Part shown: piece after piece, positions 37,565 to 46,273 of the stretch
How the letters are laid out: each line of letters opens with the position of its first letter
Numbering within the stretch: position 1 is the first letter of the stretch
DNA from: Anaerovibrio lipolyticus LB2005
GTDB lineage: Bacteria > Bacillota > Negativicutes > Selenomonadales > Selenomonadaceae
DNA: 64,000 bases
Assembly (NCBI RefSeq): GCF_000621545.1
Contig: NZ_JHYA01000003.1
Location: 186,001 to 250,000 of the forward strand
Direction: 5' to 3'
Program-made: the position numbers and the translations under genes
The notes under the pieces: model-generated
Database searches by the model: none
What the model was told of the DNA's origin: nothing
The model's input: only the letters and a program-made list of their open reading frames with translations

Positions 37565-39937
37565 ATGGATAAAGCTGGTTCATTACAAAAGCAGGTAATG
37601 GCTTTTCTGATAATTACCCTGGTGCTTTTAACGGCATTGCTTAGTTTTGCCGCCTTTGAGATAGTGGGCAATGAAAAAGACAGGGATATCGCCATCGAGA
37701 TGAACACCCTCACCGCCACCGAAGCTGAGAAACTTAATCATGACTATATCAGATTTGAAGATGCAGTAAACCACATGGTAGGAATCACGGATTTTTACAT
37801 AACCAGTGTGGATGATGTTATGGATCCAGTAAAAAGGGAAGAAATTAACAAAAATCTTCAAAAAATATATGATATATTCTCCCAAACGACTAATATGTCG
37901 CTGAGCTATTATTGCGTATATAATCCGGATTTGGTAGGAAAGCAGCAGGGATTTTTTTATACCCGTAATGCAGCTGATAATATGGAAAAACGTGAGATGA
38001 CGATTATCAGTGATTTTAATCCGGAGGATATTGAGCGGGTGGGGTGGTACACGGTTCCGATAAAGGAAAGGAAAGCTGTTTGGCTGCCACCTTATTACAA
38101 CAAAAATACAAGGCGTTATACTATATCCTATTGCGTGCCATATTATAAAAATGATGTTTTGATAGCAGTAATAGGTATGGATTTTAATTTCGAAATATTG
38201 CTGAACATGGTGGATCAGATTCATTTCAGCAAGAATGGTTACGCTTATTTAAAGAGTGCTGATGGCACGGTTCATTATCATGCCCATGATTTTATGTTGG
38301 GAAATGTACATGGTGATGAAATTCTTAAGAAGGTTAAAAATTCTGATTTACTTTCCAATAATAATTCTGGAAATAATGTAATTCAGTATGAGATGAAGGG
38401 TAGTGAACGGGTACAGACCTTTGAAACTTTAAGATGCGGACTAAAGCTGGTACTTTGTGATGATTATGATGAAATATACAAGGACAGGTACGAGCTGGTG
38501 ACCATGGATATTATAGTTATTGTTACCTGTGGATTTTTCATTATTATAATGATGGTGTATTATACCAACCGTATAATGCATCCCGTCAGAATGCTTACCA
38601 GAGCGGTGTATGCAATAAAGGATGGCAACTACGATGTGGAGCTTCCTAAAAATGCTCCGGGGGAGATTGGTGTACTTTCTCAGGGTGTGGCCATGGCAGC
38701 GGCAGCCCTTGAGGAGAAGCAACGTTTGAATGCCTCGGCCTTGGCGGCACAAAACAGAAAACTGGAGAAGGCCGTAAAAAAGGCAAAGGAAGCCAGCAGG
38801 GCAAAAAGTGATTTTTTGTCCCGGATGAGCCACGACATACGTACGCCAATGAATGCCATTGTGGGTATGGGGATGATAGCAGATTCCCATAAGGACGATC
38901 CGGAAAAGCTGTCGGAATGTTTGCGTAAAATATCCAATTCAAGCAAATATTTGCTTAATCTTATTAATGAAGTATTGGATATGAGCCGTATAGAAAGCGG
39001 TAATCTAAGTATCAATAAGGCAAATGTGAATCTTACGGACCTTATCGGAAGTATTGTTGCCATGTTAGCCCCTCAATTTGATGCCCATGATCATCATATC
39101 CAGACAAACCTGGATAACATCATACACGAAAATGTAATCAGTGACTCCCTGAGAATACAACAGGTGTTTATTAATATTTTAGGTAACTCAATTAAATACA
39201 CTCCTGACGGAGGGGAGATAAGCCTTTCCGTTAGAGAAGAACACGTATCGGCCAATAGGAGCCTGTACATTTTTAGCTTCAAGGATAATGGAATAGGCAT
39301 GTCAAAGGAATTCCAGGAAAAATTGTTCCAGCCTTTTGCCAGGGAGCAGGATGATCATGAAACTGAGGTAAAGGGCACTGGTCTGGGAATGTCTATTACC
39401 AAGGCCGTAGTGGATTTACTTGGGGGAACAATCCGAGTAAACAGTGCTCTGCAAAAGGGAACGGAAATTATTGTTCAGCTGGATCTGGAATTTGTTGAGG
39501 ATGTTGTATCCGACAAGAAACAACATAGGCAGATGGATTTTTCAGAAATCAGATTGGATGGGAAGCGGATTCTCCTTGTTGATGATATATCCCTGAATCT
39601 GGAGATAGCAGAAAACCTTCTGGAAATGACGGGAGCTGTAATGGACAAGGCCATCAATGGCAAGGAAGCAGTGGATATATTCAAGGAAAAGGGAGAGGGC
39701 TACTATGATTTGATTTTCATGGATGCCAGAATGCCGATAATGGATGGTTATGAAGCCACAAGGACTATCAGAGGTTTGGGTTCTGAATATGCAGCAAAGC
39801 TTCCTATTATTGCCATGAGCGCTGATGCCTTTGCAGAGGATATTGAGAATTTCAAAAAGTGTGGCATGAATGACTATGTATCAAAGCCGATAGATCTTAA
39901 AAACCTGGCCAGAGTTTTACAGAAGTACTTGCTTTAA
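37565..39937 (+). CDS. Cache-HAMP hybrid sensor histidine kinase
   Basis: A 790-residue membrane kinase. One span near residues 13-33, an extracytoplasmic Cache-type sensor (about 40-305; PWYxxP-like VGWYTVPIKERKAVWLPPYY), a second span (about 317-340) and HAMP precede HisKA with SHDIRTPMNAI (phospho-acceptor His423). HATPase (GTGLGMSI) and a receiver with Asp720 (FMDARMPIMDGYEA) follow. It should sense a small extracellular molecule and pass phosphate to its own receiver, then to an unlinked HPt. CAGGAGG lies 9 nt before the ATG. Confidence 0.95.
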   Translation: MDKAGSLQKQVMAFLIITLVLLTALLSFAAFEIVGNEKDRDIAIEMNTLTATEAEKLNHDYIRFEDAVNHMVGITDFYITSVDDVMDPVKREEINKNLQKIYDIFSQTTNMSLSYYCVYNPDLVGKQQGFFYTRNAADNMEKREMTIISDFNPEDIERVGWYTVPIKERKAVWLPPYYNKNTRRYTISYCVPYYKNDVLIAVIGMDFNFEILLNMVDQIHFSKNGYAYLKSADGTVHYHAHDFMLGNVHGDEILKKVKNSDLLSNNNSGNNVIQYEMKGSERVQTFETLRCGLKLVLCDDYDEIYKDRYELVTMDIIVIVTCGFFIIIMMVYYTNRIMHPVRMLTRAVYAIKDGNYDVELPKNAPGEIGVLSQGVAMAAAALEEKQRLNASALAAQNRKLEKAVKKAKEASRAKSDFLSRMSHDIRTPMNAIVGMGMIADSHKDDPEKLSECLRKISNSSKYLLNLINEVLDMSRIESGNLSINKANVNLTDLIGSIVAMLAPQFDAHDHHIQTNLDNIIHENVISDSLRIQQVFINILGNSIKYTPDGGEISLSVREEHVSANRSLYIFSFKDNGIGMSKEFQEKLFQPFAREQDDHETEVKGTGLGMSITKAVVDLLGGTIRVNSALQKGTEIIVQLDLEFVEDVVSDKKQHRQMDFSEIRLDGKRILLVDDISLNLEIAENLLEMTGAVMDKAINGKEAVDIFKEKGEGYYDLIFMDARMPIMDGYEATRTIRGLGSEYAAKLPIIAMSADAFAEDIENFKKCGMNDYVSKPIDLKNLARVLQKYLL

Positions 39938-42798: not shown

Positions 42799-45243
42799 AT
42801 GAAGAAAGATTCAAGCAGTATAGTGAAAATGCGTTCCGGAACATGGTATGGAGAATTGGATGAAAATGCCCGCGTGGAAAAAGCTACTTTTTCCGAAGAA
42901 TTACGACAGATGCTGGGCTATGACCAAATTGATTTTCCAGGAACCTTTGACATCATGCTGGAAATAGTGCATCCAGATGACAGACAGAAAATGTTAGATG
43001 CAACAGGTGCCACCATTAGAGGCGAGGTCAGTTCCTTTGATACGGAATTTCGCCTAAAAAAACAGGATGGCAGCTATATGACGGTGAATGCTACTGGTAC
43101 GGTCACTAAAAACGATGATGGTATCCCTTTTATTATGCATGGCACAATTTTTGATATATCAGCGCTAGTGGAAAACCGTATGGCTTATGAGCAAGCTATG
43201 CATCGTTTGGAAGCTTCCCAAAAATTGGAGAATGATTTAAAACAGTTTGGTCCTATAGCGGCCATTTATGAAACGGCCAGGTTCCGCCTCGAATATGATG
43301 AGCATGGAAGACGGGTATCAGTAAGCTGGAATGATGCTTATCGGGAGCTCTTGGGCTATGACAGTGATGAGGAGTTTCCTCAAACGCTACAGAGCTTTTA
43401 TAATCGTATTGTGGCTGAGGATTTGGAGAATGTGGGCCATGCCATGGACCTGTTGGAAAATGATGTACATTCTGATTCAACCTATGATGTGGAATTTCGC
43501 ATGTATAAAAAGGATCGGTCCATTGTATGGATACGGGCCGCGGCCAAGCGCATTATCGGGTCTGATGGCAAAGCGATGCATTCTATCGGCCTTTTGACGG
43601 ATATTACAGCACAGAAAAATCTGGAGCTGCAAAAAACCATATATGAGGTCTTTTCCCAGGAGTTTCTGACGGTAGGTATTATCGATATTTTCCATAATCA
43701 AATATGGCTGTTACGGGATAATATGATAAATGATACCTTTATCCAGTCCTATGAAAAGGGTGCCCATAATTATGACAATTTCCTCAAGGAATATGTCAGC
43801 AAGCATGTGGCAGAGGAAGATCGGGACCGGGTGTATCGTGGTAGTCGGGTTTTCCATATAGTTATTGAGCTAAAGAAAAATGACGTATATCGTATCAGAT
43901 ATAAGTTCCAAAAAGAAAATGGGGCTATACAATATGTTCAGGGAACATATTTGTGGCTTAACAAGGATGGGGACAAGCGAAAGGTAATATGTGGCTTTCG
44001 TGATGTAACGGACCTTATACGCCGGGAGCAGGAAAAGCAGGAGGTATTGCGTAAGGCCCAGGAAGAAGCCGAACTGGCCCGCTATGAGGCTGAGTCAGCC
44101 AATCAGGCCAAGACCTCCTTCTTGTTCAACATGTCCCATGATATCAGGACTCCGATGAATGCCATTACGGGGTATAGGGAGCTGCTGGAACGGGAGCAGG
44201 AGGACCCGGAAAAGCGCCAGTATTATCTGGACAAGATGGACGATGCCTGTAAGGTACTGATATCAATCATAAATAATGTATTGGAAATGGCCCGTATAGA
44301 AAAGGGCGTATTGAAGCTGGATGAGATACTATGGAATACTGATCAGTTTAATGATGGCCTGTATTCAATTATAAAGCCAATGATGGACAAGAAGAATATC
44401 AAGTTTACCCAGGAAATGGTTGTTTATCACCAATATTTCTTTGGTGATGGGGATAAGCTACGTGATATATTCCTGAATATTTTGTCCAATAGCTACAAAT
44501 ACACTAAGCCAGGTGGTTCAGTTCATATGAAGCTGGAGGAGCTGCCTCATGAAAAGCTTGGTTGGGCTTGGTATAGAACCACGATTAGCGATACGGGAAT
44601 CGGTATGAGTGAGGAATTTTTACCTCATATTTTTGACTCCTTTACCAGGGAAAACAATACCACCAGCAATAAAATTGAGGGAACTGGCTTAGGAATGTCC
44701 ATTGTAAAGCGGCTGACGGATTTTTTAGGTGGCAAAATTGAGGTAAAGAGCAAAAAGGGTGAGGGTACAACCTTTATTGTAGATATGCCACACCGCTTGG
44801 GGCAAAAGCCCGATGAAGGATATTCAGTGAGTGAGCATATGGAGGTTGACCCTGGTGTATTTGTGGGGAAACGGGTTTTGCTGGCTGAGGATAATGAGAT
44901 TAATGCCGAAATTGCCCTGGAGATTTTGTCTTTGGCTGGTATGACGGTGGAACATGCCAAGGATGGTCAGGAATGCGTGGCCATGCTGGAAAATACAGAT
45001 GGAAACTATTATGATTTGATCCTTATGGATGTGCAAATGCCAAGAATGAACGGCTATGAGGCCACTCGGGCTATACGTGGGTTAGCGGATGAAAAAAAGG
45101 CGCATATTCCGATTGTAGCCATGACCGCCAACGCCTTTGAAGAGGACAGAAAGGAAGCCTTTAAGGCGGGGATGGATGGCCACTTATCGAAGCCAATCGA
45201 TATAAGGGAATTAATGCGGGGTATGGCTAAGGTGTTCAGATAG
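42799..45243 (+). CDS. PAS-containing cytoplasmic hybrid histidine kinase
   Basis: An 814-residue kinase without signal peptide or membrane helices. Two PAS/PAC units (about residues 15-125 and 155-275; HPDDRQKM and WIRAAAKRI), a third PAS-like region (about 280-410), then HisKA with MSHDIRTPMNAI (phospho-acceptor His447), HATPase (GTGLGMSIVKR) and a receiver with Asp744 (LILMDVQMPRMNGYEA). It would sense an intracellular cue such as redox, metabolite or light-insensitive cofactor state. GGCGGG lies upstream of the ATG. The kinase/receiver half closely resembles the one at 9063-12035. Confidence 0.94.
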   Translation: MKKDSSSIVKMRSGTWYGELDENARVEKATFSEELRQMLGYDQIDFPGTFDIMLEIVHPDDRQKMLDATGATIRGEVSSFDTEFRLKKQDGSYMTVNATGTVTKNDDGIPFIMHGTIFDISALVENRMAYEQAMHRLEASQKLENDLKQFGPIAAIYETARFRLEYDEHGRRVSVSWNDAYRELLGYDSDEEFPQTLQSFYNRIVAEDLENVGHAMDLLENDVHSDSTYDVEFRMYKKDRSIVWIRAAAKRIIGSDGKAMHSIGLLTDITAQKNLELQKTIYEVFSQEFLTVGIIDIFHNQIWLLRDNMINDTFIQSYEKGAHNYDNFLKEYVSKHVAEEDRDRVYRGSRVFHIVIELKKNDVYRIRYKFQKENGAIQYVQGTYLWLNKDGDKRKVICGFRDVTDLIRREQEKQEVLRKAQEEAELARYEAESANQAKTSFLFNMSHDIRTPMNAITGYRELLEREQEDPEKRQYYLDKMDDACKVLISIINNVLEMARIEKGVLKLDEILWNTDQFNDGLYSIIKPMMDKKNIKFTQEMVVYHQYFFGDGDKLRDIFLNILSNSYKYTKPGGSVHMKLEELPHEKLGWAWYRTTISDTGIGMSEEFLPHIFDSFTRENNTTSNKIEGTGLGMSIVKRLTDFLGGKIEVKSKKGEGTTFIVDMPHRLGQKPDEGYSVSEHMEVDPGVFVGKRVLLAEDNEINAEIALEILSLAGMTVEHAKDGQECVAMLENTDGNYYDLILMDVQMPRMNGYEATRAIRGLADEKKAHIPIVAMTANAFEEDRKEAFKAGMDGHLSKPIDIRELMRGMAKVFR

Positions 45244-45923: not shown

Positions 45924-46238
45924 AAATTAAAAGGCCACCTTTTCAGATGGCCACTACACACACAACATCGGCTTCAATCAACTACTTACTACATCTCTCT
46001 TAGTATAGAAAAGAGGTACCTGACGTCGTCGGACATCCCAATCGGGAGTGAAGCATTGATTAATATTCGGGTACTAACGCTACCACACAATCCACTGTCA
46101 CTAACATCTACTACCAGACAAATCTACTACCAGATAACTAAGTGAGATTAATGAATATCGGCGCATCAACGTCAGCTGGGAAACCGTTTCTAATATGTCA
46201 AAGCGCTGACGGTGCAAACATCAAGTACCTCTCTATTT
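45924..46238 (-). ncRNA. Candidate structured RNA of about 315 nt, class unknown
   Basis: A stretch without a supported gene has a complete transcription unit on the minus strand. A closing stem pairs AGAGGTACTTGA (46221-46232) with TCAGGTACCTCT (46012-46023). Inside are a CGTCAGC/GCTGACG hairpin and a 13-nt direct repeat (TCTGGTAGTAGAT twice). The unit ends with a GGCCA/TGGCC terminator stem at 45931-45953 and a TTTTAATTTT tail. I could not match it to tmRNA, RNase P, SRP, 6S or a known riboswitch. It could be a stand-alone RNA or a leader of the exported-protein gene downstream. Confidence 0.6.
45931..45953 (-). terminator. Terminator of the candidate structured RNA
   Basis: GGCCATCTG/AAAAGGTGGCC stem-loop (minus strand) followed by TTTTAATTTT. 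Confidence 0.75.
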
Positions 46239-46244
46239 GTGTAT

Positions 46245-46273
46245 ATTATATTACGGATGGAAAAACTTTGCAA
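46245..46273 (-). promoter_or_regulatory. Promoter of the candidate structured RNA
   Basis: On the minus strand TTGCAA (46268-46273) and a perfect TATAAT (46245-46250) are separated by exactly 17 bp, predicting a start at about 46238. It overlaps the gap before the opposing end of the CHASE-GGDEF gene. Confidence 0.7.

Follow-up and report, generated by a model that had tools for sequence, protein, structure and literature searches.

A gene for a structured RNA was located on the minus strand of the chromosome of Anaerovibrio lipolyticus LB2005, in a window of 64,000 nucleotides (the whole stretch of DNA that was analysed). The predicted RNA extends from about position 46238 to 45924. It is nearly certain that this is a real, standalone structured RNA gene, and its transcription is predicted from its promoter and terminator. 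Sequence comparison supports a 5' end shared with the antitoxin RNAs of one class (GAGGC) of the BsrG/TxpA-like type I toxin-antitoxin modules that the genus carries. The best explanation, which may well be the correct one, is that of an orphan antitoxin RNA that has been retained and reshaped by its host. The gene would link a lineage-specific structured RNA to type I toxin-antitoxin modules. It would also be a concrete example of an antitoxin-like RNA kept under strong selection with no toxin adjacent to it; the matching toxin modules, one of them in the same genome, are direct candidate targets. No description of this RNA was found in the open-licence PMC literature.

Gene Organization and Transcription Signals

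The features of the RNA gene and its surroundings are detailed in Table 1. The near-consensus promoter, the internal hairpins, the 13-nt direct repeat and the terminator reported in the initial annotation were all present on the minus strand. Considered as scans of a single sequence, these signals were modest: 12 promoter-like sites were found in the region against 7.6 ± 2.5 in shuffled sequences, and four terminators against 3.9 ± 2.0, neither number being beyond chance by the scan alone. The promoter and the terminator of the window are credible because they are conserved across the orthologues. The 17-nt spacing and TATAAT were present in all nine and TTGCAA in seven of them, and a terminator-like hairpin, differing in sequence, was present in all nine, in both cases according to our own scan, without a shuffle control.

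Table 1. Coordinates of the RNA gene, its conserved elements, the neighbouring kinase gene and the related modules of the genus (window positions unless a locus is named).
Feature	Position	Strand	Basis
Predicted RNA, about 315 nt	45924-46238	-	Ends inferred from promoter and terminator
Promoter TTGCAA-17-TATAAT	46245-46273	-	Promoter scan and conservation in orthologues
Terminator (hairpin 45952-45933, then T-rich tail)	45924-45952	-	Terminator scan and hairpins of orthologues
Antitoxin-like 5' segment, 28 nt	46205-46232	-	In-register match to 7 of 15 module stretches, 0/200 shuffles as high
P1 closing helix, 5' arm	46217-46233	-	149/150 cells paired, 9 sequences
P1 closing helix, 3' arm	46011-46027	-	3 of 17 pairs altered on both sides
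P2 hairpin (arms 46205-46216 and 46162-46176)	46162-46216	-	108/108 cells paired, one pair changed on both sides
Conserved segment GTTGATGCGCCGAT	46157-46170	-	14 invariant columns, 9 sequences
Middle domain with 13-nt repeat	46048-46156	-	Approximate limits, columns chosen by hand
P3 hairpin TCCC-NNNN-GGGA	46036-46047	-	36/36 cells paired, no variation
Conserved segment GTCCGACGAC	46025-46034	-	Invariant, 9 sequences
Hybrid sensor kinase gene, conserved neighbour outside the RNA	42799-45243	+	Orthologue near the RNA in 9/9 genomes
Type I toxin-antitoxin modules of the genus	L031-L033, L052-L057, L085, L086, L126, L128-L130		

The fold energy of 317 nt corresponded to a z value of -2.48, and none of 100 shuffles was as low. 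The nine orthologue cores gave z values from -2.1 to -4.2 on the strand equivalent to minus; for L037 and L038 the complement folded equally well or better, the strand being less clear there by energy alone. The two copies of the 13-nt direct repeat are placed at 46106-46118 and 46122-46134 in the window, one copy is present in L003 and three, one of them degenerate, in L004; the repeat is no fixed element of the RNA.

The earlier proposal, a structured RNA of one lineage that stands alone and has a length of about 315 nt, was borne out by the helices, promoter and terminator conserved in nine orthologues, the length being a prediction. It had also been suggested that the RNA matches none of the common housekeeping RNAs and could be a new class, in accordance with the Rfam search: no family was matched at the gathering score, and a search up to E 10 gave five matches (best E 1.1), all far below the cut-offs.

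Distribution in the Genus Anaerovibrio

The RNA is single-copy in the window genome and was found in nine of the 16 Anaerovibrio genomes searched (G000, G002, G004, G006, G008, G009, G011, G013 and G014). The named relatives of the window genome belong to Anaerovibrio: A. lipolyticus DSM 3074, the source of L003, Anaerovibrio sp. RM50 and JC8, and several MAGs. In each of the nine genomes the RNA is found within about 2.6 kb of a hybrid sensor kinase orthologue, past the 3' end of that gene; the distance is below 1 kb in eight and about 2.5 kb in G013. These kinases show 50 to 96% amino-acid identity to that of the window. In the remaining seven genomes the kinase matches were partial and lower-scoring, and no match to the RNA was judged real; the absence is not firm in three of the seven, since they are only 81 to 86% complete.

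A model of the 5' domain (R1, with the RNAalifold structure and not our P2) was searched against 189 genomes of the family under stricter filters. Matches were obtained in 16 genomes at E ≤ 0.1, the nine orthologues having E 7e-19 or better. Eight further matches, from seven more genomes and from another locus of G013, were weak (E between 1.6e-4 and 0.084) and were set aside: the five inspected by eye (L118, L119, L123, L124 and L125) showed neither the 5' motif nor the closing helix, and L120-L122 were discarded along with them. The exact 5' pattern was present in 12 stretches of the named genomes, 11 of them in Anaerovibrio records; the twelfth (L069, from a Muribaculaceae MAG) looks like coding sequence and was also discarded. 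This pattern was not found in viral contigs, and BLAST of phage and plasmid collections gave no match to the RNA. The data are best explained by a chromosomal RNA gene that is inherited with its neighbourhood and restricted to some of the rumen bacteria of the genus Anaerovibrio.

Other candidates were rejected. Weak DNA matches at G010:C166 and G005:C89 look like coding sequence, the matches L035 and L039 were inspected and dismissed, and the other low-scoring matches among relatives, most of them short and spread over a search in which 39 of 60 genomes gave a match at E ≤ 1, were attributed to chance, for the most part as a group.

Conserved Helices and Strand

For the study of the helices the nine sequences were aligned, clade A being formed by the window and L002-L006, and clade B by L036-L038. 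The closing stem, initially annotated with 12 bp, was found to have 17 pairs, G-U included (P1), and the expected covariation was detected in it. P2 has 12 pairs and P3 four; P1 and P2 together are paired in 257 of 258 cells, and P3, being invariant, provides no evidence of covariation. Changes on both sides affect four pairs, three in P1 and one in P2, with a total of 10 cells. None of 500 shuffles reached the observed number of such cells, the percentage paired or the covariation score, while the number of pairs changed on both sides was matched by 25 of 500; further pair types, matched by 494 of 500, add nothing to the covariation case. The independent covariation events are few, as most changes divide clade A from clade B. 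On the complement strand pairing falls to 124 of 150 cells for P1 and to 96 of 108 for P2; given these lower values and the G-U pairs, the structure was assigned to the minus strand.

The initial annotation had also contemplated a long leader for the exported protein encoded downstream, and a related possibility is an attenuator acting through a short leader peptide (MFAPSA...). A frame with this start, with GAGG ahead, is present in all nine orthologues, with 7 aa in clade A and 21 aa in clade B; in the window it reads MFAPSAL (46198-46221, minus strand) and is located inside the conserved 5' segment. Its start changes stay usable, to TTG in L038 and to GTG in module L085. Nevertheless, the bases concerned are kept as pairing partners in the helices, and in module L086 an extra T shifts the frame. 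The exported-protein gene, for its part, is separated from the RNA by the terminator, has a promoter-like site of its own (45924-45897) and was not found beside the RNA in three of the nine loci (L036-L038), so that the leader proposal did not hold up and, in either form, is very improbable.

Type I Toxin-Antitoxin Modules Related to the 5' End

The search of relatives revealed additional matches to the 28-nt segment at further loci, where the same 5' end is found downstream of a promoter-like site and the opposite strand bears a small hydrophobic frame, a ribosome site and a facing promoter (promoters read by eye). These modules are present in many copies in the genus and constitute two classes, with GAGGC and GAGAC starts. 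A toxin-like frame was detected by script in 14 of the 15 module stretches, and that of the fifteenth (L055) was seen in a separate reading. The modules are called Hol_Tox on the basis of Pfam searches, in which one of two module peptides gave a weak match (E 0.027, below the cut-off) and the other none; the Hol_Tox search of the window genome found nothing, though module L126 is present in it. This module lies on the same contig, outside the window (G000:C3, about 38795-39170), and its hydrophobic peptide has 25 aa (MSLYEQLSLLIALLTLAVTIYSIKR). Modules of sister genera match the Rfam BsrG model below the gathering score (L061, 851-963, E 4.1e-5; L059, 822-1094, E 0.0011), so the BsrG family probably extends to this bacterial class.

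The core of the window RNA was compared with the 15 module stretches by local alignment, with 200 shuffles each. For L031, L032, L085, L086, L033, L126 and L128 no shuffle scored as high as the RNA, and each of the seven alignments is in register with the promoter, beginning with base 1 of the core opposite base 2 of the module stretch. L129 was equalled by two of 200 shuffles, and the seven modules of the GAGAC class gave no signal. The clade B RNA L036 was unmatched by any of 200 shuffles for five of the 15 modules, with one shuffle as high for L126, four for L128 and one for L057 (out of register). Alignment scores with the toxin strand were 16 to 23, values given without shuffle comparison. 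The similarity is confined to the 5' segment: the 3' part of the RNA had no significant match among the 15 stretches (best, eight of 200 shuffles as high), and the module search matched the RNA solely at this segment and not at the middle domain. Sharing of the 5' end is thus supported, and this end is probably derived from an antitoxin, a type I antitoxin-like trait that the initial annotation had missed; that the RNA as a whole descends from a module is a hypothesis.

A module of the GAGGC class was found in seven of the nine RNA-bearing genomes and in one of the seven others (G001, L129), a contrast that is confounded by kinship. In G009 and G013, which have the RNA, a module of the matching class was looked for and not found.

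Absence of a Cognate Toxin and Selective Constraint

Comparison of the frames of the orthologues indicated that the RNA locus has no cognate toxin gene: frames with a motif similar to a ribosome site exist on the complement, but they are not shared among orthologues and do not resemble the toxins. No plus-strand site was found near 45950-46010 at 9/12 promoter matches, the facing toxin promoter having been looked for in the window only. The RNA did not match the Rfam BsrG model at gathering or relaxed thresholds.

Conservation was measured in identity blocks that we chose around the helices, with the variable P2 loop omitted and gap columns uncounted, and was compared with that of the 4-fold sites of the neighbouring kinase. 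In the distant members of clade A, L004, L005 and L006, the 5' block was identical to that of the window (46/46 each), the 3' block had 38/38, 38/38 and 36/38 identities, and the middle domain 96/98, 89/98 and 92/98, while the 4-fold kinase sites agreed at 0.43, 0.49 and 0.53, in the same order. For the near relatives L002 and L003 the 4-fold sites agreed at 0.85 and 0.86. Clade B showed 40-41/46 in the 5' block, 30-32/38 in the 3' block and 45-47/98 in the middle domain, with 4-fold sites at 0.37-0.38. The middle domain, with identities from 82/82 to 89/98 within clade A, aligns poorly to clade B (gap columns excluded). With helix blocks near-identical while the silent kinase sites have diverged, the RNA is under strong purifying selection.

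This result bears directly on the idea of a functionless, decaying remnant of a toxin-antitoxin module. Such remnants would not be foreign to the genus, in which damaged module copies exist (L034, L127, L131 and L132), and the lack of both toxin frame and toxin promoter at the locus would agree with decay. The near-identical blocks against diverged silent sites, the compensatory changes, and a promoter and a terminator in nine of nine orthologues are contrary to it, and this explanation is strongly disfavoured, the least credible of those considered.

Proposed Function

As an orphan antitoxin, the RNA would most likely pair through its 5' segment with related toxin mRNAs in their 3' part, like antitoxins of the BsrG/TxpA type. 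It would then act from an unlinked locus as a second silencer, against the toxins of modules already resident or incoming, with an anti-addiction effect. P1 and P2 would compete with an antitoxin-like 5' hairpin and set when the seed is free, and the transcript would run through the structured body to the terminator beyond the closing stem P1. For each of the seven matching modules, the duplex predicted between the first 80 nt and the 3' part of the toxin mRNA was more stable than in any of 200 shuffles, with energies of -55 to -69 kcal/mol against -154 to -167 for the cognate pairs. The values for the other eight of the 15 were within the shuffle range (L129, -51.0; the seven GAGAC modules, -37 to -44), and the cognate duplexes between antitoxin and toxin mRNA were far stronger (-154 to -171 kcal/mol). 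The predicted duplexes follow from sequence similarity and thus indicate feasibility only. A trans-acting antitoxin function is plausible and is our preferred mechanism, though less likely than not; the bases of the loop are tied up in P1/P2, and the conserved middle domain is left unexplained by an antitoxin role.

The chief reason to consider a function other than or beyond that of an antitoxin is this middle domain, for which the search showed no relation to the modules. An exapted RNA, whose promoter and 5' hairpin would come from an antitoxin and which would now have another role, as a regulator of host mRNAs or in an RNA-protein complex, and whose closing stem and body would be its functional parts, is a serious though minority possibility. 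The preservation of the domain in L004-L006 despite their diverged 4-fold sites points in this direction, as do the retention of the RNA in G009 and G013 with no module of the matching class found, and the fact that P1/P2, and not the antitoxin hairpin, form the conserved fold: a change in L038 keeps P1 and, read by eye, breaks the 5' hairpin. On the other side, the 28 nt are still close to the modules, and any partner or target of such an RNA is hypothetical.

Returning to the orphan antitoxin, its most complete formulation would be a new RNA family. A host lineage would have fused a type I antitoxin's recognition end onto a conserved structured body and so obtained a fixed chromosomal RNA that silences the toxins of related modules in trans, as anti-addiction at the level of RNA, access to the recognition end being governed by a long-range helix. 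We put this forward tentatively and consider it rather unlikely in its entirety.

Comparison with Known Systems

In the BsrG/SR4 and TxpA/RatA systems of Bacillus subtilis, base pairing joins the 3' ends of antitoxin and toxin mRNA, and the antitoxin thereby favours decay of the mRNA (PMC6562991, PMC3531473). The modules of the genus with the 28-nt 5' end are similar to these systems in bearing, on the strand that faces the antitoxin RNA, a small hydrophobic frame like that of a toxin. The window RNA differs from them in the lack of an opposite toxin frame and of a BsrG match, in a longer structured body and in a fixed chromosomal place. Retention of a type I antitoxin RNA without its toxin has a precedent in strains of Escherichia coli that keep the orz antitoxin without zor, where, in the portion of PMC11264685 considered here, the RNA was shown by Northern blot and OrzPmg is described as 100% identical to the known OrzP antitoxin. 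In contrast to OrzPmg, the Anaerovibrio RNA resembles the module antitoxins in no more than the 28 nt at its 5' end; it possesses a conserved fold of its own and has been kept across deep divergence in part of the genus; we infer that it represents an older and more altered case than the orz-only loci. The anti-addiction antitoxins presented in part of PMC10305079 counteract CcdB-F and AtaT, protein against protein. They resemble the Anaerovibrio RNA in the proposed role only, protection in trans from homologous toxins, whereas the latter would act as RNA against mRNA. Finally, the TTTG loop was read by eye as a YUNR U-turn motif, and this motif is discussed for bsrG/SR4 and bsrE/SR5 in a section of PMC6562991.
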